Origin: Cheiracanthium punctorium
Lineage: Eukaryota > Arthropoda > Arachnida > Araneae > Cheiracanthiidae
DNA: 64,000 nucleotides
Assembly (NCBI GenBank): GCA_038373885.1
Contig: JAWZYV010016546.1
Coordinates: 186,001 to 250,000, forward strand
Direction of reading: 5' to 3'
Part shown: positions 3,436-64,000 of the stretch, one piece after another
How positions within the stretch are numbered: position 1 is the first letter of the stretch
How the letters are laid out: each line of letters starts with the position of its first letter
Notes under the pieces: generated by a model
What the model was told of the DNA's origin: nothing
What the model saw: only the letters and a program-made list of their open reading frames with translations
Databases searched by the model: none
Program-made: the position numbers and the translations under genes

Positions 3436-3617
3436 TTAACCCTTTGAGGCGCAACCCTTTCCCAATGCTGAAAAAAGAGCAGCCGTTGCCATCGCTCGAC
3501 TTAACTACCAGCAAGATGGCGGACGATCGAAACGTTCATCGCGTGCCACAGATCTAGAGATCCTTTTTTTGACGCAGCTGGCTGTGCCGGGCACAATCGT
3601 GTCTATCGTATAATCGT

Positions 3618-3669
<52 letters not shown>

Positions 3670-3826
3670 GGGAAATGGCGTGCTAAAATGTAAAGGGGAT
3701 TCTCGTGGAGCTATGTCACCCTCAACTATTTTTATAGAAATCAAATCTATTCTTCGTGACTGGCAACAGTCAAAACGTCAGAGTTTGGTGTTCCCAGAGC
3801 GGGAACACTGCACGTTAAAGGGTTAA
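3436..3826 (+). mobile_element. piggyBac-like foldback element, copy 1 (A end to B end)
   Basis: Flanked by TTAA at both ends. The A end reads TTAACCCTTTGAGGCGCAAC; the B end reads, inward on the minus strand, TTAACCCTTTAACGTGCAGTG. TTAA duplications with CCCTTT termini are diagnostic of piggyBac-like elements. The interior shares with other copies the GCCATCGCTCGACTTAAC, AGCAAGATGGCGGACGATCG and CCACAGATCTAGAGA blocks, the central GCTGGCTGTGCC piece and the B-end hairpin. A long poly-T (about 3620-3667) interrupts the middle. There is no transposase, so this is a non-autonomous copy. The open frame at 3505-3744 is a by-product of the element. Confidence 0.85.
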
Positions 3827-5200
3827 GGAGAGGACATCATTTTGAGGATATACAAATCCGATAGTTACACCTTATTGGAATTAATTACTTTATTTTTTCA
3901 GCATCAACTATGCTCTGTTAAAAAACAAACCTTCGTAAAAAAAAAGCTGAAACTCCAGTTTGAAACTATGCTTTCGTCTTCAGTTTCGTTCAATCGCCCC
4001 GAAGAGCTGGCTGGGTTCAGTGACCTATTGGTTTTCGCTCGCTCCGCTGGGAAAAAAAGAGCTTTTAATGTATAACATTTTTCCGATTTCCTTTTTAAAC
4101 CCTGGAAAGGAATAATATCGTCAGCTTTTCTCCAAATTTCTGCAATACGTGATATAATAATAATAATAATTCTGACGTTTAAGTTCTGGTAAAACTATGG
4201 GCAGTTATAGTTATCTTCTGCTGCATTGATGGCTTTATATTGATATCTACATGTTTCCGTGCCTATGCAGTTTAAGACAAAATTATTTCTAAAGAAGAAA
4301 ATTTTGCTTTTTTAAATAAATGGATGCTTGACAAAAACGATCGGCAAGTTATCGGCTTTGGGATATGTTTGAGATGAAATAATCGACCGACAAAAAATAA
4401 TGATGCCAAATTTGACTGGAAATTTGCAGCTGATAGTCGACGAATTTCTAGGCCTGAAGTTTAGGAAAAAAATTTCTGAAGAGTATTTTTTTAAATAACT
4501 AGTTGATTAATGCAATGATAGGCAAGCCATCGGCTTTTGGTATGTTTCTAATGAAATAAATGACTAACTGAAATAATGATTGGCAAATTATCTATTGGAA
4601 AATTGTAGCCGACGGTGATAAAAGGGGTAAAAAATATATCATTTAATAAACTAAATGAACAATTTTTGCTTATACAACTTAAAATTAGATGAAATCTATG
4701 GCATATTCAAAAGCACTTTCAACACTTAGCCAATGCTGTTCCAGTGTTTTGCAATGTATTGATGATAATGTGCGTTGGCTGTATATGTTTCATTAATTCT
4801 CATTAGGGTGCTGTAGTTTAATTCTGCAAAAGCATACCAGAGTTGAGAAGAATGGTTATCGTGATATGATCAGTAACAAAAGATTTTACAACGCAGTGGT
4901 TTTCAAATAGTTTATCGATATTATAGTTAATTATGTGGCTTTACTTTTGTAGCACTGCGGTCAACTATAAGCTCAGTACATCAAAATCTTGTTATAAAGA
5001 ACTTCAAATTAACGAATACGATATTTCTATTAAAAGAAAACCGTATTGTACAAATTCAATCCTAATGAAATTTTTATGAATTTTGTTAAAGTTACGAATT
5101 CGATTTTCGGTAATGGCATCATTCGCTGTACAGAAATTTTATTCATTTTCAGATTTGAATTTAAATGCATTAAATGCTAGGTTTTAAAAATGCTCCACAA
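3827..5200. other. AT-rich spacer with one nuclear-receptor-type palindrome
   Basis: Mostly AT-rich non-coding DNA, with a short (AAT)n near 4151. From about 4970 to 5160 it resembles the 'ttataacgag / cgttaatttgaaatattt' theme seen at 55.7-56.2 kb, so it may hold an old mariner-type remnant. The only precise motif is the palindrome at 4014-4026. The open frame 3842-4075 shows no recognisable domain. Confidence 0.5.
4014..4026. promoter_or_regulatory. Exact IR-1 nuclear-receptor palindrome (EcRE type)
   Basis: GGTTCAGTGACCT fits every position of RGKTCANTGAMCY, the published consensus for EcR/USP inverted repeats spaced by one base. Its local context (GCTGGGTTCAGTGACCTATTGG) resembles the conserved core of the array starting near 5.2 kb, so it may be an outlying copy. 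Confidence 0.5.
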
Positions 5201-6814
5201 CGTACATAACTTGCGAGGGTGAAGGGTTCACAGAAGAGTTCATCGACCCACTTAGACTGCGGTATCGGTGGTACAGATGTTACGTCAGTGGGGTACAAAG
5301 GGTAATACGGGGTAATGGGAAAAGTGGGTTATTTATACCGGCGTCCTATGATGTCAGTTCAACGTGCATAAAAAAAAGACTTTTTTTTTTCTTCATTTTA
5401 TTTGAAATGTATACCAAAAAATTAAAACCAATAATTAATTAACGAACATGTGACAGATTTTTGAGATTTTGGTGCCTTATATAAATTAGTGCATATAAAT
5501 GTGTCGTTGTTCTGTTGTGTATGATGGTAAAATAAAACTAATTTACTGTTATTAATTAATTAAAACTGATAAGTTAGTGTTAATACATTTAAAGATTTAC
5601 TTAATTTATCAGTTTATAAAAACTTTTATAAAGTACATTTATAAGCACATGCTTACATAATCAATAAGTATTGTTAAAGTTCGTTGACCTCTATCGGCTA
5701 TATTCATCTGTAGAGTAAATTATATAGTTTTATTATTTAAACATTTTTTACATTATTTCAGAACACATGTCATCTTATTAAAGGAAATTTGTCTTAAATT
5801 TTATTGCTTGTTAATTAATTAATTAATTAATTTTGTATTTAAAACCTGAAGATATTTTTTTAATGCTAGCTTGCATCACTACTGGCAATATAATTTATAA
5901 AATTAATCTAGTTCACACTTTCCTCATGTACATATATATACTTTCTGCTTTTACTAAATGTACGAAATAAAAGGAATGTGGTAAAATTTGAACTATCATA
6001 GGTCATTGACATATAATACTATGACAAGTAATATAGCAAACTTCTAAATTTATTTTGCTTACATTTACGATAGTTACATTGCATGTACATGATCTCCTAT
6101 TTCTTCAAAATATCATTTATCATACATTTTTTTTAAATTTGAAATGCTGTCTTTTTTTTATTAAATGGAATCAATAACGTAAAAAAAATGTCTCAAGTTC
6201 CTTTAAAAGTCACGAAATTACTTTTAGGTGAACTTTGAAAGTTATGAAAATGTATTAAAATTATATTGTAGTATATCCAATTAAAAGGCATTGATAAAGA
6301 TCATTATCATGCCATAAAAAATGTTATAATTTTTACTGGAACTATAACAGAATGTCTGCAAAGATTATACAAAAAGACGAATGTAACACAGTAAGTAAAA
6401 CTGGTTCATTATAAAGAATCATTTAAGAATACAATTATAGTTTCTTTTCCACACAGGGTTCAACAACCTGATCATTTTACACCCTGAACTAATTTCTTAA
6501 ATTGAAAGAAAAATTAAAACTGTATCTAAATTTGTATTGTAAAACATTAAATTTCATAATCGCAGTTTACAATGTACACCCTTTAGGTCGTTAACCTTTA
6601 AACGAGATGCAATATAAGCAGTATAGTTATGCTTACAATTTTAACTACTAATTATTAAAAATGTATGCAATGTATAATCCTGGAAATCACTTTAAAAATA
6701 ACTACTAGTGAATTAAAAATCAATTGTATGTAAGCACATGCATACATTTGTACAAATGTATAATTTCATAAGTTTTCTCTGAAAATTCTACAACGTTCCT
6801 GCTTCCCTTGCGAA

Positions 6815-6827
6815 AGTTCAATGACCT
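6815..6827. promoter_or_regulatory. Exact IR-1 palindrome (EcRE type)
   Basis: AGTTCAATGACCT matches RGKTCANTGAMCY exactly. The spacer base is A, whereas the other array cores carry G. Confidence 0.5.
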
Positions 6828-7845
6828 AACGGGGTTCTGTAAAGCGAATATGCATTTCACTATAACAGAGTGCACTTTGATGTGTCATTACGTACATTAC
6901 TCGGTAAAAAATAAGATAATCCAAATTTAATAAAGTATTTTTCAATCTTTAATAAGAAGGGAATTTTTAAAAAGAAACCTTTAACTATTATAATAAAGAA
7001 AGTAAAGAATCCCAATAAAATACACAAGTTTGCGGAACCACCTTTCAATTTGAATAATTGACATTAATTCTTAAGATATTATCGTTGTAAATCTCTTTTA
7101 CAGAAAATGCCCATTCAAAAATTAATTTCGAGTTGGAAAGCTTCCAAACTTCTCGGCTTTTCTGCATCTTAGTTCAGTAACCCAATAACCTCACAAAACA
7201 TATAAGCAATTTAAAAAAAAAGCGAGAAATATCCAGTTGTGTTAAAAATTATCTTAGCTTCAATAAGCTTTCATAGTTTAGAATAATCTTAACACCCGCT
7301 CAAAATTTAACTTCGATAATTGCAGGTGATGATACTTTGAAATATGTATACATAATAAGCCTAGGAAAAAATATCTTTATCTAATTATTTGTATGCATAA
7401 TTTTTATTTTTAATCATTTTATGAAACGCTTAAAGCATACATTCAAAATATCACTATTAAATTGTATTATATAATATAGTAATTCATGTATTGAACTCAT
7501 TCTAATATTTCTATTTCCTTTTAATTAGAGTTCAATACCCAAATATTTTAACAAAAAATGTAAGAAAATTAAAAAATAAATTAACGAAGTACAAGTATGT
7601 ATGTGATGGATTAACAGTGCTACAAATTACATACATTTATTTTGAAAAATTAATAGATCAGTTTATTTACATATTTATTTTAACTTTGTTTGTTGGTTAT
7701 GTATCAGGATCCATGATTTGAAACCTATGTTTGAAATTATTACACGCAATTTTAAAATTAAATTTTTGTAATAATAAAATTGTTGTAATTTTATAATTGA
7801 TTGCCCTAGTTTGTATCATATATTCCTAAGATCACGCTTTGTCTG

Positions 7846-7858
7846 AGTTCAGTGACCC
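7846..7858. promoter_or_regulatory. Exact IR-1 palindrome (EcRE type)
   Basis: AGTTCAGTGACCC matches RGKTCANTGAMCY exactly. It is followed by the array's TACAGAGTAAATGAT segment after a small insertion. Confidence 0.5.
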
Positions 7859-8295
7859 TATAACTACACAGTACACAAAATGTTACAGAGTAAATGATAG
7901 GAAAAATCTGTCCTAGCAACATATGCATATTAAAATTATAATTTTTAAAAGTTATATTGATAGACTAAATTTAATTAATTAATTAATGAGCTTCTAAAGA
8001 TTTTACTTTATTGTATTCATTTATTCCTATATTTACCATTATTTAAGAAAGTAATTCTTTATTTTACCTTATGTAAATTCGGGAGTGCTGCATTGTAAAT
8101 CATTGCACGCTTAATTTACCCAAACAATTCTAAAGTATAAAATAATTAAAACTTTGCAAAATAACACCATAAAAGTTACTTGTCAGTCTTTGGTCATTGT
8201 ATTGTGTTATTTTATAAAGTCTTGATTATTTTTGTTTTAAACACGTTATTTTGAGTGTTTTATTGTTAGTCCAAAATATCCAATGTATGAACTAG

Positions 8296-8308
8296 AGTTC
8301 AGTGACCT
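8296..8308. promoter_or_regulatory. Exact IR-1 palindrome (EcRE type)
   Basis: AGTTCAGTGACCT matches RGKTCANTGAMCY exactly, and is followed by AATAGTGGCA as in the other array units. Confidence 0.5.
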
Positions 8309-8616
8309 AATAGTGGCATAGCATACGAGTAGTTCCAGATTAAACGATTAAAATAAATAATTAATTAATGCATAGTATATTTAAACATTAATATAAGTTT
8401 ATATAAATATTTAAAATTTATTTTTGCTAATTACACAAAATAAATTAATTATCAGTTATCTGTTACTTTATTGAATTCCGCTTTTTTTTTTTTTTTTTTT
8501 TTTTTGTTGTTAATGTATACCTCCCAGTATCTAAGAGGAACATCGATAATTATTACAAGCTCGGTTAATTAGCCTAATCCAACCAAACTTTAGTCTTCAC
8601 CTACTCTATTAGTCAA

Positions 8617-8629
8617 AGTTCAGTGACCT
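8617..8629. promoter_or_regulatory. Exact IR-1 palindrome (EcRE type)
   Basis: AGTTCAGTGACCT matches RGKTCANTGAMCY exactly, and is followed by AATTGTTGCACAGGATTAC, the array's downstream flank. Confidence 0.5.
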
Positions 8630-9467
8630 AATTGTTGCACAGGATTACTCAATAAATTATTGAAAAGCAAAATGTTACCGTAATAGTATTTAACTGTGTA
8701 TGTTTAAAAATCCATTTATTTAATTAATAATCACACAAAATACCAATTATTTATTAATAAACTAACTATTCTCTAGATTGAATTTAATTGTTACATGAGC
8801 TCTTTTGACGCATTTCATAAAGTGTAAAATTCCGCAATATTTCGAAAATAAATTGATAGTGAATTTTTGACTATGAACGTAACTCAAGCAGACTGCTCTG
8901 GAATTTCCTAAATCATCTTTTTATCTATAAAACTAATTATACATAGAATTGCAGAGTGAAGGGGTTCAGTGGCCTAATGATTGCATGGAGTTGCAGAGTA
9001 AAAACGATTATAAAAAATCCTTTACCTTTATAACATATAAATATGTTATTAAGGTAGTAAGATATTCAAAAATACAGAATAATTAAACGAATTTAATTAA
9101 TTAATTTTTTAATTTAATAACATATTGGTACATGTTTCAAAGTATACCATGCCCCAAATTTGCTATAAAGCGTATTGGGGCATGATATAAAGTATAATAA
9201 GTACATTATTTTAAAAATATATTGACAGTTAACATACCTTATGTTATCTTAATACATTATTAATACGTATATTCAAAAATACATATTAATTAAACGAAAT
9301 TAATTAAGTAATTAAATATTTTTAATTGTATAACTTTGTTTTATAGCTTATTGGGATATAAAGCGTGACTCGTTCAATATTTAAAAAATATATTGACAGT
9401 GAATATGCAAGTAATTAACGCAAACTATTTCAAGATTACCAAAGTTTTCATCTTCACTATCAACCAG

Positions 9468-9480
9468 AGTTCAGTGACCT
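9468..9480. promoter_or_regulatory. Exact IR-1 palindrome (EcRE type)
   Basis: AGTTCAGTGACCT matches RGKTCANTGAMCY exactly. It is preceded by TATCAACCAG, the upstream flank shared with the 9762 and 10311 units. Confidence 0.5.
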
Positions 9481-9761
9481 TATAGTTGAACAGGAATGCA
9501 GAGTAAATGATTGAAAAAAACCTAAGCAACATATTAAAATGTAGATTTAGAAATTTATATTAATTACGCGAAACGAATATTAGTAAACTAATTTTTTTCT
9601 TAATTAATTCATTAATTTTTGATTATTTTTTGTTTTTTATTTTTCTTTAATTGATAACTTTGTTACATACATAAAATATTCTTAGTTAACGCGCTAGTAA
9701 TTAACGCAACCCACGTAAACTATTTTAAAACTTTCTTGAGCTTTTACATTTTATCAACCAG

Positions 9762-9774
9762 AGTTCAGTGACCT
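9762..9774. promoter_or_regulatory. Exact IR-1 palindrome (EcRE type)
   Basis: AGTTCAGTGACCT matches RGKTCANTGAMCY exactly. Both flanks (ATCAACCAG upstream, AATAGTTGCTCAGAGTTACA downstream) are nearly identical to those at 10311. Confidence 0.5.
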
Positions 9775-10310
9775 AATAGTTGCTCAGAGTTACAGAGTGA
9801 ATGATTAAAATAAAAAACTACCTGAAACCGCATATTAAAATGTTTAAAAATACATATTAACATGCGTTAAATTAATTATTAATGAATAAATATTTTTTTC
9901 TTATTTTGATAGTGACTTTCATGTATAAATATAATTAAAATGTATTAATAGTTAGCACGCGACTTATTAACTATCCTTGCCCAGATTACCTCAACAACAT
10001 ATTAAAATATATATTTAAAAATATATAATAATTATAACGAAATTAATTTTTAATGAACTAATTAATTCTTTATTCAAGTGATAAAATTTAGCAGTATCTT
10101 TGTTATTGTGAGAAAGCTATACTTAGTTATACTAATAGTTAAAAAACTAGTTATAATTACTTATAAATAGTTAACGTTTATAATAGTTAATGTAAGAGTT
10201 AACTATTAACATATTTCAAATGCATTAACAGCTAAAGCTCGACTAATTAACACGACCTACGCAAACTATTTCTAAAATTTCTCGAAAACTTCACCTTCTC
10301 TACCAACCAG

Positions 10311-10323
10311 AGTTCAGTGACCT
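10311..10323. promoter_or_regulatory. Exact IR-1 palindrome (EcRE type)
   Basis: AGTTCAGTGACCT matches RGKTCANTGAMCY exactly. This is the last full unit of the array; a weaker GGTTCGTTGACCG follows at 10512. Confidence 0.5.
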
Positions 10324-10530
10324 AATAGTTGCACAGAGTTACAGAGTGAACGACGTGAAAAAAAAAAAAAAAACTACCCTAGCAACATATAAAAGATTTT
10401 TTTAGCTCCGCTCTCGCAGTAGGTTAGAAATTCTCCCCCCACTAAAAAAAGAAAAAAAGAAATTCGACGAATGTTACGCACACACATTACACACTGTGAG
10501 CTCGGAGTAAGGGTTCGTTGACCGCTGCTT

Positions 10531-11159: not shown

Positions 11160-11565
11160 AAATCACTAAATTTCCATAAAAGTCGCTAATTTCTTGTTTC
11201 ACGTAAAGCGTCGTATTGGGTCTAAATGCAATGTAAAGTCGCTAAATTTAGCGAAAAGGGCAGTGTAAAGTCGCTAAATGTAGAGACTCTCAAAATACAT
11301 TGGAAAATCGCCAAATTTAGCGACTACTCCCAAAATGCAATGAAAAGGCGTTAAAATTAACGACAAATCTCAGAATTCAATGAAAAATCGCTAAATTTAG
11401 CGACAAGGGCAATGTAATGTCGCTAAATTTAGAGACTACCAAAATACATTGGAAAATCGCTAAATTTAGTGACTACTCCAAAATGCAATGAAAAGTCGTT
11501 AGAATTAACGACAAACCTAAGAATTCAATGAAAAGACGCTAAATTTAGCCATAAATCCTTTGAAC
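11160..11565. repeat. Higher-order tandem array of a palindromic ~37-bp monomer
   Basis: Monomers of about 37 bp are built on the 16-bp palindrome TCGCTAAATTTAGCGA, joined by links such as AATGTAAAG and CAAAATACATTGGAAAA. Four monomer types follow in fixed order, giving a higher-order unit of about 149 bp: the GCGAAAAGGGCAGTG step at 11251 returns as GCGACAAGGGCAATG at 11400. About 2.7 higher-order units are present. The monomers differ from each other, but the same type matches closely between units, which is the mark of higher-order amplification. Confidence 0.85.
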
Positions 11566-12394: not shown

Positions 12395-14000
12395 TCAAAG
12401 AGCAGAGGTCACTAACCTTCAACAAACTCAGGTAATGTACTGACGTAGAGTTTTAAAATCGTTAAATTTTAACTTTTTTTCAATCTTCTAAAATTGTTTA
12501 ACACTAAATAATTTTTGTAAGCAACCTGATTGTTACACCTTTATTTAGCATAGATAGGTTTTTGTATTATTACTAAATATATTATTTATTTAAAATTGTT
12601 ATTACTATTTAACAGTATTTGAAATCCCTCTTACCCTTGTAACACTGAACGGGGGGAGGTCATTCACCCCTCCGAGAACAGTTTAGTTTAATTTAATATT
12701 GCAGTTTATTTACTGCATGAAGTTAAACATTATTGAAAAGTAAACTTAAGCCGGTGAATTAACTAACTTTTATTCTGAATAATGAAATTAATTAAGCATT
12801 TTAATTAATAATTTTACTTCGTAAATCTATTATTTTAGCCACTAACTTAAAAAATTCAGTTTATACAAGTAGTAGCTAAATGTAACCTATTTTAGTATTT
12901 TATTTTGGAAAGGAGGAGGTTACATAGCATTTTTTTATAATTTTTCTCGTACATTTTATTGTACTGAACTAAAAAACAATTAACTAGACAATAAAATTTA
13001 TATTTAAGAAACTTTTTGACGAAAATTGTGCAGAATCAATGTTAATTTGAAAATCAGTCTTTTTTTAAATTCGCTGGTTAACTTAGTTTTAGATAACCTA
13101 CATAACGAGGTCATTCACCCTGAGATATTACATATAAGTACTCTTTAATTTTAAAATATGAAACGTATAAATTTCTTATACATATCATATTAAATCTTAT
13201 AAAAAATAATTTTATGCTTAAATATTTTTTATGTTTAATATTATTTTTGTTAGTGACATTGGTTTTGTTTAGTAATATTGTTTAATATTAATAAAATTAA
13301 TTAGTTTAATATACAAAAAAGTTGCTGTTGAAGAAACTTTTGACGGAAAGTGTGCAGAATCAAATTTAAAAATCAGTTTGTTTATTATTATTATTATTAT
13401 CTGGATAACTTATATATAAATCTTTTAGATAACCTACATAACGAGGTCATTCACCCTGAGATTTTACATATAGGTATTCTTTAATTATAAATGCGAAAAA
13501 TTAATAATTTATTATACGCATCATATGAAATCTTGTCATAAATAAGATTAAATAGTTTTATTTTCTGTGGCTTCAATTTTTAATTAGTGTAATTTAGATG
13601 ATTATTCTCAAAATTGATTTATAGGTAAATGCTTTGACATGTTCTATATAAAATCCAATAAATTTTATAAAATTAATTGGATTTTATAATTTACAAATTA
13701 TTAAAAATATTCAAATTAGTAAAGAATACTTGATTACTATAATAATGAGGCTATAATGGCAAAGACAACAATAAAAGTAGTCAAAATTTCAAATAACCGT
13801 AAGCTGAATTATATACTTAGTGCTTAAAATAAAAAAATGAGTTTTATATAAACAATAATTTAACAATTTCTACTACTATCTATGTATTATTAGGTGAACT
13901 TATTGACCTAATCATACAGAAAGTTCACATCCGTTCTAGTTAACCCTTCGAGGTCTCGAGTTGGGGTCGTTCACCCCCTGTCGAACATTTAGTTTTCTTT
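12395..14000. repeat. Second degenerate array, GGTCATTCACC core
   Basis: Two well-matched units lie about 337 bp apart, at 13095-13160 and 13432-13497. Both read GATAACCTACATAACGAGG, then TCATTCACCCTGAGAT, then TTACATATA and CTTTAATT. Related cores occur at 12402 (GAGGTCACTAACCTT), 12657 (GGAGGTCATTCACCCC) and about 13967 (GGGGTCGTTCACCCC). The core AGGTCATTCACCC is one base from the IR-1 consensus that marks the 5-10.5 kb array, so the two arrays may share an origin or a binding partner. The rest is AT-rich filler. Confidence 0.65.
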
Positions 14001-14714
14001 GAATATGCCCTTTTCGAAAATACTTACCATTGCAAAATTTAATATATACCTTTATTTAAAATTTGGGTATGTTTGAGTAAAAAATTCATTTCACAAGTTT
14101 TATTTAATGTTATTGCTTCATGTGGATCAATTAGTTAAGTAAATCAAAAAATAAAATTTCATGATACAAATAAAACTTAAGTTCATATAAAGTGTTCTTC
14201 TTTTTCTTTTTTTTTTTTTTCTTTTTTTCAACGAAACAACTTTCGTGGTATGATGCAATGTCTGAAAAAATACTACTTTTTTGCACTTGCCTCCTTTTAA
14301 AAGTGAAAGCAATAAATTAAAACACTCTTTCACTAATTGTAACGTTAGTTTGGGATTTGCATTTTAGAAACAGTCGCTACAACCCTTCCTAAAGAAATAA
14401 CCTTTCATAATACTGCAATTTCAGACTTGTATTTTCTTACATAACATTCTTAAGTGTGACTTGAACTTGTAAATTCATGTTCAGACAGCAGGAAAAATTT
14501 GCCAGTGATTGCTAATAATTAGGCACCTAATTAAGAGTGGCTATTGTAAAAATTGCCGATAATCCTTTGAAAACAATCATTCATTTTAATTCTCAAGCGA
14601 AATTTCTTCCAAGTGATTTTACACGTTTTGCTAACTTAATCCGATTTGCTGGTTTGGATTTGAAACGCGCTCCACTTAATCCTTCTAATCCACTGTTCTT
14701 GAGGTCGTTCAACC
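14001..14714. other. AT-rich spacer, nothing recognised
   Basis: AT-rich with a poly-T/poly-A run near 14200. The open frame at 14537-14776 starts at a non-ATG codon and runs into the transposon at 14715, so I do not call it. Confidence 0.55.
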
Positions 14715-17238: not shown

Positions 17239-17728
17239 TAGTGATGGGCATGAATGGATGAATCTGTTCGAATGAATCGATTATAAAATGCATTAGCAAG
17301 AACCGATTTTTAAAAAATCCATTCGAGCGTTCAGCACATGGCATTCGAATAGCATACGGCATTCGAAATCTCGAGTGCTATTCGAATAGTGAAATCGCGA
17401 TTACTATTCGAATATTCAAAAAGTAAAATCGCGATTTCTATTGAAATATTCGAAAAGTAAAACCGCGATTTCTATTCAAATATTCGAAAAATAAACTCGC
17501 GATTACTATTCGAATATTTGAAAAGTAAAATCGCGATTTTTATTCGAATATTCGAATCGCGAGATTGTGAGTAATATTCGAATAATGGAACCAACGATTA
17601 CTATGCGAATAGGAATGGCGAATACTATTCGAATAGTGGAAATCGCGAATATTCTCGATTAATCGATTATTGGTTCTATTCGAACAGTAGTAATCGATTA
17701 TAGAAATAATTTAAATGGCACATCACTA
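17239..17728. mobile_element. hAT-like MITE, TAGTGATG family, copy 2 (with inner subrepeats)
   Basis: Starts TAGTGATGGGCATGAATG and ends GGCACATCACTA, an inverted pair; TTTTAGA lies on both flanks (imperfect 8-bp duplication). The middle holds a run of about 43-bp subrepeats of the form ATTCGAATATTCGAAAAGTA plus AATCGCGATTNCT, four to five times. This is the longest of the near-complete copies apart from the one at 20439. Confidence 0.75.
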
Positions 17729-18304: not shown

Positions 18305-18640
18305 AGATGAGAGAACCACGCGGAATCCATTTGCACAACTTACTGATATCAGTATCTCCTCATAAACAGTAATAGAAGCAAAACTGAATTATTACATTAC
18401 AATCTCATAAATTAAAATTATGAGAATCAACAACGTCGTTTCGCTAAGTCTCTGCGACGAGAGAACTACGCGTAATCTATTTGCACAACCTACTGATATC
18501 AGTATCTCCTCATAAACGATAATAGAAGCTAAACTGAATTATTATATTACAATCTCATAATTTAAAATTATGAGAATCAACAACGTCGTTTCGCTAAGTC
18601 TCTGCGACGAGAGAACTAAGCGGAATCCATTTGCACCTAA
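18305..18640. repeat. Recent 150-bp tandem duplication (about 2.2 copies)
   Basis: AGTATCTCCTCATAAAC occurs at 18351 and again at 18501, exactly 150 bp later. Each unit has ATTTGCACAACNTACTGATA, GAAGC(A/T)AAACTGAATTAT, CAATCTCATAA and the CAACGTCGTTTCGCTAAGTC / TCTGCGACGAGAGAACTA stretch. Only a handful of differences separate the units, so the duplication is young compared with other arrays here. A partial third unit ends near 18636. Confidence 0.85.
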
Positions 18641-20438: not shown

Positions 20439-20957
20439 AGTGATGGCGATGGGCATGAATGAATGAAAGTATTCGAATGAATCGATTATTAAATGCATTA
20501 GAGATAATCGATTTTGAAAAATCCATTCTAGCGCTCAGCAAACATTGCATTCGAATAGCGAAATATAGTTTTCGAATAGTGAAATCGCGGAAATTATTCG
20601 AATAATAAAACTGCAAAAATATTAGTCGAATAGAAATCGTGAATACTATTCAAATAGAAATTGCGAATATTCACTATTCGATTAATCGATTACTGAGTCT
20701 ATTCAAATAGTAGTAATCGATTATAGAAATCATGGCACATCGCTACATAAGACTATGACAATCTCGAATAGAAATCGCGAATACTATTCAAATAGTGAAA
20801 AATCGCGAATGCTATTTGAATAAGAAAATAGCGAATATTCACTATTCTATTAATCTATTATTGACTATCTTTTATTGAGTCTATTATTAAATCTATTATT
20901 GATTCTATTCGAATAGTAGTAATCGATTTTAGAAACCATTTGAGTGTCAGATCATTA
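20439..20957. mobile_element. hAT-like MITE, TAGTGATG family, copy 3
   Basis: Starts TAGTGATGGCGATGGGCATG and ends AGATCATTAG; GCTCAG lies on both sides (20432-20437 and 20958-20963). An internal CACATCGCTA near 20737 looks like the end of a shorter copy, so this may be two copies fused or an internally duplicated one. The interior has the family's AATCGATTA and ATTCGAATAG steps. Confidence 0.65.
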
Positions 20958-32543: not shown

Positions 32544-32901
32544 TAGTGATGCGCATGAATAAATGAAACTGTATCGAATTAATCGATTATTACATGCATT
32601 CGAGATAATCGATTTTGTGAAATTCATTTGAACGCTCAGCACAAAGCATTCGAATAGCACATGTCATTCAAAATATCAAATAGTAATGGCGAATACTATT
32701 CGAATAGGGAAATCGCCATTACTATTCATACAGTGAAATCGCGAATATTATTCGATTAGAAATCGCAAATACTCTTCCAATCGTAAAATCGCGAATATTC
32801 ACTGTTCGATTGATCGATTACTGTTTCTATTCGAATAGTAGTAATCGATTATAAAAATTATTACAATGTTATAGAAATTATTAGAATAATTTACATCCCT
32901 A
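32544..32901. mobile_element. hAT-like MITE, TAGTGATG family, copy 4
   Basis: Starts TAGTGATGCGCATGAATAAA and ends near TTTACATCCCTA, with the family's AATCGATTATT, ATTCGAATAG and GAAATCGC interior. I do not see a matching target duplication. Confidence 0.65.
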
Positions 32902-52571: not shown

Positions 52572-52789
52572 TTTTTTTTTTTTTTTTCTAATGGGCAGGC
52601 ACTGGCCACAAGCCTTTGCCATCAACCGCCCTAGTTACTGTCCATTTTATTATGGGAGCACCCAGTGGGCGGACAGCACTACCCCCTATGAAGGGACGGA
52701 CAAGTTAACATCCATGCCCAAGCCGGGATTCGAACCCGGACCCACGGCGTGATAGAATGGTTCTCTAGCCACTACACCACCTGGGCGGC
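52572..52789 (-). mobile_element. tRNA-derived SINE, copy 2, exact target duplication
   Basis: AGATCCAATTG is repeated exactly at 52561-52571 and 52790-52800. On the minus strand: GCCGCCCAGGTGGTGTAGTG (A box within), GCTAGAGAACC, GGTCCGGGTTCGAATCCC (B box), a body with CCGTCCCTTCATAGGGGG and TGGGTGCTCCC, and an A tail of about 16. It is inserted into one arm of the inverted repeat that spans 52412-52847. Intact A and B boxes make it a plausible RNA polymerase III transcript. Confidence 0.9.
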
Positions 52790-58463: not shown

Positions 58464-59690
58464 GTGAATATGGATCTTGTTTACCTTTGATTTTGGATGC
58501 ATTTGGATTCTGTTTTTGCCCTAACCTTAAAATGTGCCCCAAAGTCCCAAAACTTCCTCCAACGAGGTTTGGACCCTCCCAAGCTGTTCCATGGACATTT
58601 TTCACTTTCGATTTTTACTGAGTGCCCTAACAAGATCCCAAGTGCCCCTAATAGAACATCAAAGGCAAAATTATCAAGAAACTGCTCAGTTTCCTTAAAA
58701 CAGTATCATGGATCTTGTTTACTTTCGGTGTTAAAAATTACTCGAAAATATTTAAAAAGAAATTTCAGCTAGAACCTATTAGGTTCCCTCAAAAGAATAT
58801 TGTGAATCTTTTTTATTTTCGATTCTGGATCCCAAAAAATTATTGTAAGATCTTATTGAAGTCTCAAAAATCAAAATTTCCTTGTGACAGCTTCATAGAT
58901 CCTGTTTACTTTCGATTTTGGATGTCAGTAGAAATTGTTTGTGCCCCAAAAAGTGATTCTGAAGCCTAAGTTCCCCTAAAGTTTAAAAGTGAAAATTTTT
59001 TTATAACAGCTCCATTATTATTATTATTATTATTTTCACTTTCCATGTAATTGGAGAATATCATGTTCTTACATGTTAATAAAAAAATTAAGTCCCCTTC
59101 CTCCAAAACCTCAAAGATAAACATTGCCTTGAATCTTCCAAAAATGGTATGTACAATGTATTTTGGATGTGAAGAAAAATATTAGTGCTTGAATAAGTTT
59201 AAAATTATATGTCTAATTTCTATGAAATAATTTATAAGATAATAATTTCTATGGAAAGTTTTAGTTTGCCTTACATGTTCTGTAAATATTGTTTACTTCT
59301 GATTTGGATGTAATATGTAACAATTTGCTAAGTATCAGGTATTGCTATTTTTACATGTTCTCACAAAACTAAGTGAAGTGTTACCTAGAACTAAAATAAA
59401 AATTCATATTAAGTACCACCTTTAAAAAAAATCCTATATAGCATCTAGTTGCTTAATATGTAAACAAAAAGATACGTGCCGGTACTAAAATTAATAATAT
59501 TATCGATGTAAATATTGTGTAAATCGTATAATAACATTTCTAAGATTGTTCTTAATAATGTGCCGTTAAATTATCTTTCTCTATTGATCGCTTTATTAGC
59601 ATAAATACGTAAAGCTCTAAAATATTTCAACGTTTGCCCTTCTCCCTTAAATTTCAACCACAGAACATTGCATAATAGTTACGATATTCT
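58464..59690 (+). other. Probable intron with degenerate tandem pieces
   Basis: From 58464 to 58990 pieces such as GGATCTTGTTTACTTTCG, ATTTTGGATG, GTGCCCCAAA and CCTTAAAACAG recur every ~110-150 bp in worn form. The open frames at 58497-58969 simply follow these pieces. A (TTA)n lies at 59013-59034, then AT-rich DNA to 59640. No acceptor with a convincing exon after it is visible before 59700. Confidence 0.4.
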
Positions 59691-59735
59691 TCAGAAATCC
59701 TCTCTTGTTTAACTACGGGCGTCGCCATTACTTGG

Positions 59736-59753
59736 CGAGGTGCATGCTGGGAG
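59736..59753 (-). promoter_or_regulatory. Staf/ZNF143-like site
   Basis: The minus strand reads CTCCCAGCATGCACCTCG, agreeing with the published Staf binding consensus YNCCCRNMATSCMYYRCR at 17 of 18 positions. In animals this site lies in promoters of small-RNA genes and of many mRNA genes. Confidence 0.5.
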
Positions 59754-59792
59754 TTCAGCGCGCTCTCCAAGGTCAATGGCCGGATACGCCGG

Positions 59793-59806
59793 GTTTCCAT
59801 GGCGAC
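59793..59806. promoter_or_regulatory. RFX X-box
   Basis: GTTTCCATGGCGAC fits RYYNYY(N2)RRNRAC at every position and is close to the palindromic high-affinity form GTTNCCATGGNAAC. X-boxes usually mark promoters of ciliary or RFX-controlled genes. Confidence 0.5.
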
Positions 59807-59924
59807 GCAGTTGTCGAGGGAACCAACATGGCCGCCTGCGACGAAAGATAGCATATGACACAAACTGTTTTCTTGTGTATGCTATGCCCCCCCCCCCCTT
59901 CGGAACTGCGATTTTGACCCATAA

Positions 59925-63480: not shown

Positions 63481-63860
63481 TTGTTCTCTTTCCCCGTTTC
63501 CTCTCCCTCATTTTTAGGTATCCCCTTAAACTACTTTTGTTCTTATCCCGGGAGAAATATTTTTTTCCCCCTTCAGGCTACTTAAGCTTTGAGGCTACAT
63601 CTTACGCTTCATTGGATACGTTTGGCAACATAACGTGATTTTTGTGTCAAATTTTTTTTTAGGTCTTCTCTGTTTATTTAAATTTTTAGGTATCTTTTAT
63701 TCTACTAATTGTGAGTTACAATTAATAAAATAATAGTGACGGACATGCATTTCGTATGCATTTAGTTGGTATAGTCAAGTTTAGCTAAGAGGTCATTCAC
63801 CTCTTCCTCACACCATTACAACATGGAAGGGTTGGTAAAGGTTCAATGACCCGAGTTCTT
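63481..63860. promoter_or_regulatory. Segment with paired receptor-type palindromes
   Basis: Pyrimidine-rich at 63490-63590. At 63790-63802 AGGTCATTCACCT is one base off IR-1, and 38 bp further on is an exact site (63840). The pair brackets CTTCCTCACACCATTACAAC. Confidence 0.4.
63840..63852. promoter_or_regulatory. Exact IR-1 palindrome (EcRE type), outside the arrays
   Basis: GGTTCAATGACCC matches RGKTCANTGAMCY at all positions. It is more than 50 kb from the array copies and has different flanks, so it is an independent occurrence in this window. Confidence 0.5.
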
Positions 63861-64000
63861 TGTATAGTTACTCTGTAAATCATAGATTCTTTATTTCTTT
63901 CTGTGGCCGTAATAAATTGGATTTTTGTAAAAATTTACGTACTATGAGAATAATATTTGTCATCAGTAAAATTATTTAATAATTATTTTACGAAGTGCAA

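Follow-up and report, generated by a model that had tools for sequence, protein, structure and literature searches.

Known ecdysone response elements (EcREs) are usually described as one or a few per promoter, and the CENP-B box of alpha satellite provides the case of a satellite that carries a conserved protein box. The canonical EcRE consensus is RGKTCANTGAMCY, derived from dozens of Drosophila genes (PMC3498158), and in the promoter of Bombyx KRP the word AGTTCAGTGACCT is reported as a predicted EcRE (PMC7905918). Homotypic clusters of nuclear-receptor sites are described for Drosophila cis-regulatory modules (PMC4097164), and tapiR is a satellite locus of Aedes producing PIWI-interacting RNA (piRNA) (PMC9962485). 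The stretch analysed here, 64,000 nucleotides of contig JAWZYV010016546.1 (positions 186,001 to 250,000; assembly GCA_038373885.1), hereafter the window, contains towards its start a series of 13-bp palindromes of the EcRE type. We tentatively read this series as a homotypic cluster of nuclear-receptor sites arranged as inverted repeats with a 1-bp spacer (IR-1), most likely sites for EcR/USP, lying in old and partly tandem repeats.

The 13-bp palindrome and its conservation

In the majority core word, AGTTCA-G-TGACCT or AGTTCAGTGACCT, nuclear-receptor half-sites form an IR-1 palindrome of 13 bp. An earlier note on this DNA had listed eight exact matches to RGKTCANTGAMCY, at 4014, 6815, 7846, 8296, 8617, 9468, 9762 and 10311, and all eight were found there; a ninth, absent from its list, lies at 63840. 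The one-mismatch copies that it placed at 5678, 6000, 7171 and 8963 were recovered as well, the remaining one starting at 5237 and not at 5236. The interval 4014-10323 holds eight exact and five one-mismatch copies of the EcRE consensus. The arithmetic behind the expectation of about one such 13-mer per 1.05 million positions is correct, and with at most one mismatch allowed there are 22 matches across the 64-kb window, against a mean of 1.26 and a maximum of 6 in 100 dinucleotide shuffles. Base composition over 4-14 kb is AT-rich (G+C 24-32% in 2-kb steps). As for the proposal that the core pattern is an EcR IR-1 site, the pattern is identical to the canonical Drosophila consensus as given in PMC3498158.

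Comparison of core and flanks across aligned units, a check that the earlier note had itself suggested, refuted equal divergence, the core being far more identical. Among the seven copies from 7846 to 10311, mean pairwise identity is 0.934 in the core, 0.718 in the next 28 columns, 0.622 in the 3′ flank and 0.495 in the 5′ flank, and a 13-column window as good as the core appeared in none of 20000 column shuffles; a second alignment of the same copies gave 0.934, 0.711 (next block), 0.612 and 0.486, respectively, with one such window in 20000 shuffles. For the three copies at 7846, 8296 and 8617 the values are 0.949 in the core, 0.583 in the block, 0.396 in the 5′ flank and 0.500 in the 3′ flank (10 of 20000 shuffles), and for the four copies with supported flanks (8963-10311) they are 0.923, 0.732, 0.594 and 0.542 in the same order (244 of 20000). 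In this last subset, which is the cleanest one, core conservation is thus only moderately significant. The best 13-column window is the core, or begins one column earlier, in all three copy sets, and conservation extends ~30-40 bp beyond the core. With a core that is 92-95% identical in each copy set versus 40-59% for the 5′ flank, and with departures that are mostly those allowed by the consensus, the suggestion of selection on the core stands, and the core has probably been kept by selection.

The pattern of substitutions points in the same direction. The set used for this purpose consisted of the plus-strand words with at most three mismatches to AGTTCAGTGACCT found at 3.9-14.8 kb and beyond 63.7 kb, the EcRE consensus having played no part in the choice; it comprises 16 copies with 24 departures, and omits the sites with four or more mismatches (6585, 12657, 13108, 13444, 13964 and 14702). 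Nine minus-strand matches in these regions are the same sites read in reverse. The consensus permits 17 of the 24 departures versus 7/39 (18%) expected, with a p of 2e-8 that overstates independence, the copies being related. A count by distinct substitution types is safer: 6 of the 7 allowed types were observed versus 6 of the 32 others (Fisher p 0.0017), or 3 of 4 versus 6 of 32 when the dyad centre is excluded (p 0.04). Of 200000 random tolerance patterns of equal shape, 15 captured as many events, or 46 if transition-weighted. In a set of 21 sites, which was picked by motif with a free centre and whose information content is therefore biased, 32 departures are allowed and 14 are not; the corresponding numbers for the 12406-14702 and 63790 sites, which were likewise picked by motif, are 21 and 9.

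One could argue that these are neutral decayed repeats, in which the core was conserved by chance, by recent spread or by short gene conversion. Some copies are indeed related tandem duplicates, and the 244 shuffles that match the core in the four copies with supported flanks lend this idea some substance. We nevertheless consider it very improbable, since across seven copies only 0 or 1 of 20000 shuffles do as well, cores survive next to flanks that have become unrecognisable, substitutions are tolerated in a non-random pattern and conversion confined to 13 bp would be unusual.

Half-sites are also in excess outside the cores. Between 20 masked cores, RGKTCA/TGAMCY was counted 23 times versus 11.8 expected (0 of 1000 resamplings reached this number), and in the rest of the window 64 times versus 81 expected.

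Repeat units and their tandem relationship

Core spacing within 7846-10311 varies from 294 to 549 bp. Flank profiles, covering -150 to -5 upstream and +50 to +190 downstream, were trained on the seven copies and thus match those by construction. With each copy held out in turn, the upstream profile recovers those at 9468 (E 7e-6), 8963 (0.0035), 10311 (0.006) and, weakly, 9762 (0.029). Because this recovery is limited to 8963-10311, the tandem relationship is independently supported only there (~8.9-10.4 kb) and for two unit remnants; the core is retained in four of the six units with such support. Around the copies at 4014-7183 there is no significant flank-profile match, though the core is common to them. 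On account of the held-out result we lowered our confidence in the receptor-cluster reading slightly, from evenly balanced to just under that, and raised by a trifle the very small one given to neutral decay.

The earlier note had described a satellite-like array. A tandem relationship is supported for part of the copies, but the units are not homogenised: flank identity is about 0.40-0.62, and Tandem Repeats Finder, with periods up to 500, called no array across the cores. The label of satellite therefore fits poorly. The barely recognisable flanks suggest that the repeats are of great age.

Candidate ligands and competing explanations

The mechanism that we propose is that old, partly tandem repeats have decayed except for one DNA element, the main part of which would be the IR-1 palindrome, with a second element, GTTACAGAGTAAATGATT, in some copies. 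A nuclear-receptor dimer, most likely EcR/USP, would occupy the sites, and about a dozen of these over 6 kb might act jointly as a hormone-responsive regulatory platform, i.e. a distal enhancer or silencer. Among the predicted ligands such a dimer is the best supported, and in an arthropod EcR/USP would be the likeliest one, an assignment that we advance with some reserve. FXR is an IR-1 receptor of vertebrates, and vertebrate genomes are CpG-depleted; the CpG observed/expected ratio of 1.04 found here speaks against a vertebrate and hence against FXR, without being proof of an arthropod.

The second element, of about GTTACAGAGTAAATGATT, is aligned downstream of the core in some copies. Outside the copies that served for its definition it is significant in 3 of 17, where it begins 27-47 bp past the core start: 63840 (p 0.0003), 6815 (0.011) and 5678 (0.019). 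Correction for 17 tests leaves only 63840 significant, and the likeness of 63840 and 5678 had been noticed by eye beforehand. When copies are sorted into groups that we defined ourselves, the eight of A-type or related kind (without 6457 and 10512) reach a combined p of 1.3e-4 and the six of C-type or related kind (without 13444) one of 0.6. The C-type sites belong to a wider motif, RGKTCRNTNAMCY, which runs on to 14.7 kb (12406-14714) in the forms AGGTCACTAACCT, AGGTCATTCACCC (three sites), GGGTCGTTCACCC and AGGTCGTTCAACC, and resumes at 63.79 kb (63790). Within the window, GTTCAGTGACC is found seven times on the plus strand and never on the minus strand.

Some of the C-type sites (12657, 13108, 13444, 13964 and 63790) have extended inverted arms around CATTC or CGTTC, e.g. 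AAGAGGT-CATTC-ACCTCTT at 63790. By eye, the arms differ among copies but are largely complementary, and they may constitute a separate element; in a hairpin reading of these sites (AGGT-CATTC-ACCT), the long arms at 63790 and 12657 were judged by eye alone. Near them, at 13895-13909, the two receptor half-sites of TGAACT-TAT-TGACCT form a direct repeat with a spacer of 3 bp.

Several observations weigh against a cluster of IR-1 receptor sites. Such a cluster accounts least well for the neighbouring C-type sites, for the bias in strand and for the remnants devoid of a core: the C-type sites at 12-14 kb, among them those reading AGGTCATTCACCC, do not fit the IR-1 EcRE consensus, sites in the clusters that match the wider motif on a single strand number 10 on the plus strand and 1 on the minus strand (for a motif defined after viewing them), and both units newly detected by their flanks are core-less. 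In addition, the copies at 7846, 8296 and 8617 were not recovered by the held-out flank profiles (best E 7.7). In 13 of the 21 motif-selected sites the palindrome is imperfect at the same place, a T at position 3 facing a C at position 11, and in several sites the G that IR-1 requires at position 9 is replaced by C or A. The half-site enrichment ranks 11 among 720 letter permutations, ten others being more enriched. The downstream element is not significant in 14 of the 17 tested copies, 4014 and 7171 being at background (p 0.84 and 0.75). Finally, no target gene was recognised: Pfam gave no match above its curated cut-off for the 20 open reading frames tested out of the hundreds in the window.

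Alternatively, the core could be the selected site of a protein other than a nuclear receptor, for instance a zinc-finger or insulator protein, recognising an asymmetric sequence such as RGKTCRNTNACCY that spans the IR-1 and the C-type copies. A single consensus fits the IR-1 and C-type sites without a change of orientation; all 21 sites have C at positions 5 and 11, whereas variation is seen at 9 and 3, the respective dyad partners; and GGTCATTCACC is strand-biased in the window (4 on plus, 0 on minus). However, the variation in the 16 copies fits an independently fixed EcRE consensus far better than random patterns do, and there is the half-site excess outside the cores, so that we hold this explanation to be doubtful, though the strongest of the competitors.

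Another possibility is that the conserved block acts as RNA, be it a satellite-derived piRNA in the manner of tapiR, a microexon or a structured small RNA. It would agree with the conservation 30-40 bp beyond the core, with the co-orientation of most copies, with a slight upstream pyrimidine enrichment (mean 0.539 vs 0.497, p 0.046) and with the frame TTC AGT GAC, open across the block in several units. But this is improbable if one considers that no Rfam family exceeds its gathering score in the region (the only match, to mir-891 at 9019-9062, is sub-threshold), that the consensus structure of nine aligned blocks has 0 pairs, that the frame contains a stop in unit 8296 and several more copies, and that the 13 strictly conserved bp are shorter than a piRNA. 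As separate candidates in the array region, structured RNA, tRNA and microRNA were likewise not accepted (Rfam, ARAGORN and the nine unpaired blocks), and a splice acceptor or microexon was rejected (weak pyrimidine bias only, stops in several units).

If the sites are indeed bound by a receptor, their role could differ from that of an ordinary enhancer. Ancient repeats may have been maintained for a very long time with no other role than to carry a receptor module, made up of the IR-1 site and, in part of the copies, a partner site, with clusters at 4-15 kb and from 63.8 kb, serving as an ecdysone-response hub or reservoir and not as the enhancer of a single gene; we regard this as unlikely. 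A receptor sponge, in which the sites bind the receptor to titrate it and not to regulate a neighbour, would suit the many sites and the partial search that recognised no coding gene in the window, but about a dozen sites are few for titrating an abundant receptor, and of the explanations considered here we find this the least credible.

Surroundings of the array and comparison with known systems

Positions of cores, related sites, repeat remnants and the downstream element in the window
Positions	Strand	Feature	Support
4014-4026	+	Core GGTTCAGTGACCT, exact	No flank-profile match
5237-5249	+	Core AGTTCATCGACCC, one mismatch	
5678-5690	+	Core AGTTCGTTGACCT, one mismatch; downstream element at 5707	
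6000-6012	+	Core AGGTCATTGACAT, one mismatch	
6585-6597	+	Related palindrome AGGTCGTTAACCT, outside EcRE consensus	
6815-6827	+	Core AGTTCAATGACCT, exact; downstream element at 6862	
7171-7183	+	Core AGTTCAGTAACCC, one mismatch	
7689-10499	+	Stretch covered by flank profiles of the seven copies 7846-10311, including two core-less remnants	
7846-7858	+	Core AGTTCAGTGACCC, exact EcRE consensus	
8296-8308	+	Core AGTTCAGTGACCT, exact	
8617-8629	+	Core AGTTCAGTGACCT, exact	
8963-8975	+	Core GGTTCAGTGGCCT, one mismatch	Held-out flanks
9201-9338	+	Unit remnant without core	Upstream profile 9201-9235, weak, E 0.21; downstream 9259-9338, E 0.0004
9468-9480	+	Core AGTTCAGTGACCT, exact	Held-out flanks
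9762-9774	+	Core AGTTCAGTGACCT, exact	Held-out flanks, weak
9893-10071	+	Unit remnant without core, upstream and downstream profiles abutting	E 0.0006 and 4e-6
10311-10323	+	Core AGTTCAGTGACCT, exact	Held-out flanks
12406-12418	+	Related site AGGTCACTAACCT	
12657-12669	+	C-type site AGGTCATTCACCC	
13108-13120	+	C-type site AGGTCATTCACCC, in 336-bp direct duplication with the 13444 site	
13444-13456	+	C-type site AGGTCATTCACCC	
13964-13976	+	C-type site GGGTCGTTCACCC	
14702-14714	+	Related site AGGTCGTTCAACC	
63790-63802	+	C-type site AGGTCATTCACCT, near window end, 50 bp before the 63840 core	
63840-63852	+	Core GGTTCAATGACCC, exact	
63867-63884	+	Downstream element GTTACTCTGTAAATCATA of the 63840 core	p 0.0003

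A scan of the window for coding potential gave a best score of 26.9, compared with bests of 16.7, 16.8 and 19.8 in three shuffles. The top regions, 50.8-51.2 and 44.2-44.9 kb, score on both strands and were not accepted as genes, and a candidate exon on the minus strand (59657-59881) had no match in solved structures or Pfam. A tRNA-like Rfam match of 33.5 bits (52715-52786, minus strand), without an ARAGORN call and far from the array, is perhaps the head of a tRNA-derived short interspersed nuclear element. Repeats of other kinds are also present. At 3436-3826 lies a TTAA-flanked element with CCCTTT...AAAGGG ends, which presumably is a miniature inverted-repeat transposable element of the piggyBac type, and translated pieces similar to it recur at several places of the window in the list of open reading frames. 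Tandem Repeats Finder reported an array of ~40-bp units containing AAATCGCTAAATTTAG at 11267-11548; recurring units of 24-34 bp with AATCGCGA and ATTCGAA-type words are found at 17365-17584, 20618-20837 and 32685-32799, and a tandem duplication of a 150-bp unit (2.2 copies, 93% matches) at 18309-18636.

If a receptor binds the cores, repeat DNA long past recognition would have been retained solely for its receptor sites. The locus would then show, in a clean and naturally occurring example, satellite-like repeats that became a regulatory element, and one could readily test on it whether hormone pulses are gauged by the number of receptor sites in a cluster. In the open-licence literature searched, as far as the accessible parts of the papers extend, no report of EcRE cores in tandem repeats was recognised. 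Searches of sequence collections gave zero matches, for two patterns in viral contigs and for one in genome contigs, which carries little weight as these collections are viral and prokaryotic.

What the locus has in common with alpha satellite and its CENP-B box is a short conserved box within diverged repeat units; it differs in that its units are unhomogenised, the array is short (about 10 kb) and the box is another one. With the canonical EcRE, the IR-1 site of EcR/USP, it shares an exact sequence match at nine sites of the window (eight between 4 and 10.3 kb) and a variation that tracks the degeneracy of the consensus. The majority word is, moreover, identical to the EcRE that PMC7905918 reports as predicted for the promoter of Bombyx KRP. 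Unlike canonical elements, the putative EcREs described here are cores of old repeats. The homotypic clusters of Drosophila (PMC4097164) resemble this one in that nuclear-receptor sites of the same type are repeated close together, whereas in the present cluster most neighbouring sites are separated by 300-500 bp and tandem duplication gave rise to some of them. With tapiR (PMC9962485), finally, the likeness is that of a functional short sequence borne by satellite repeats, and the difference is that the strictly conserved part is, in the present case, a palindrome of 13 bp.

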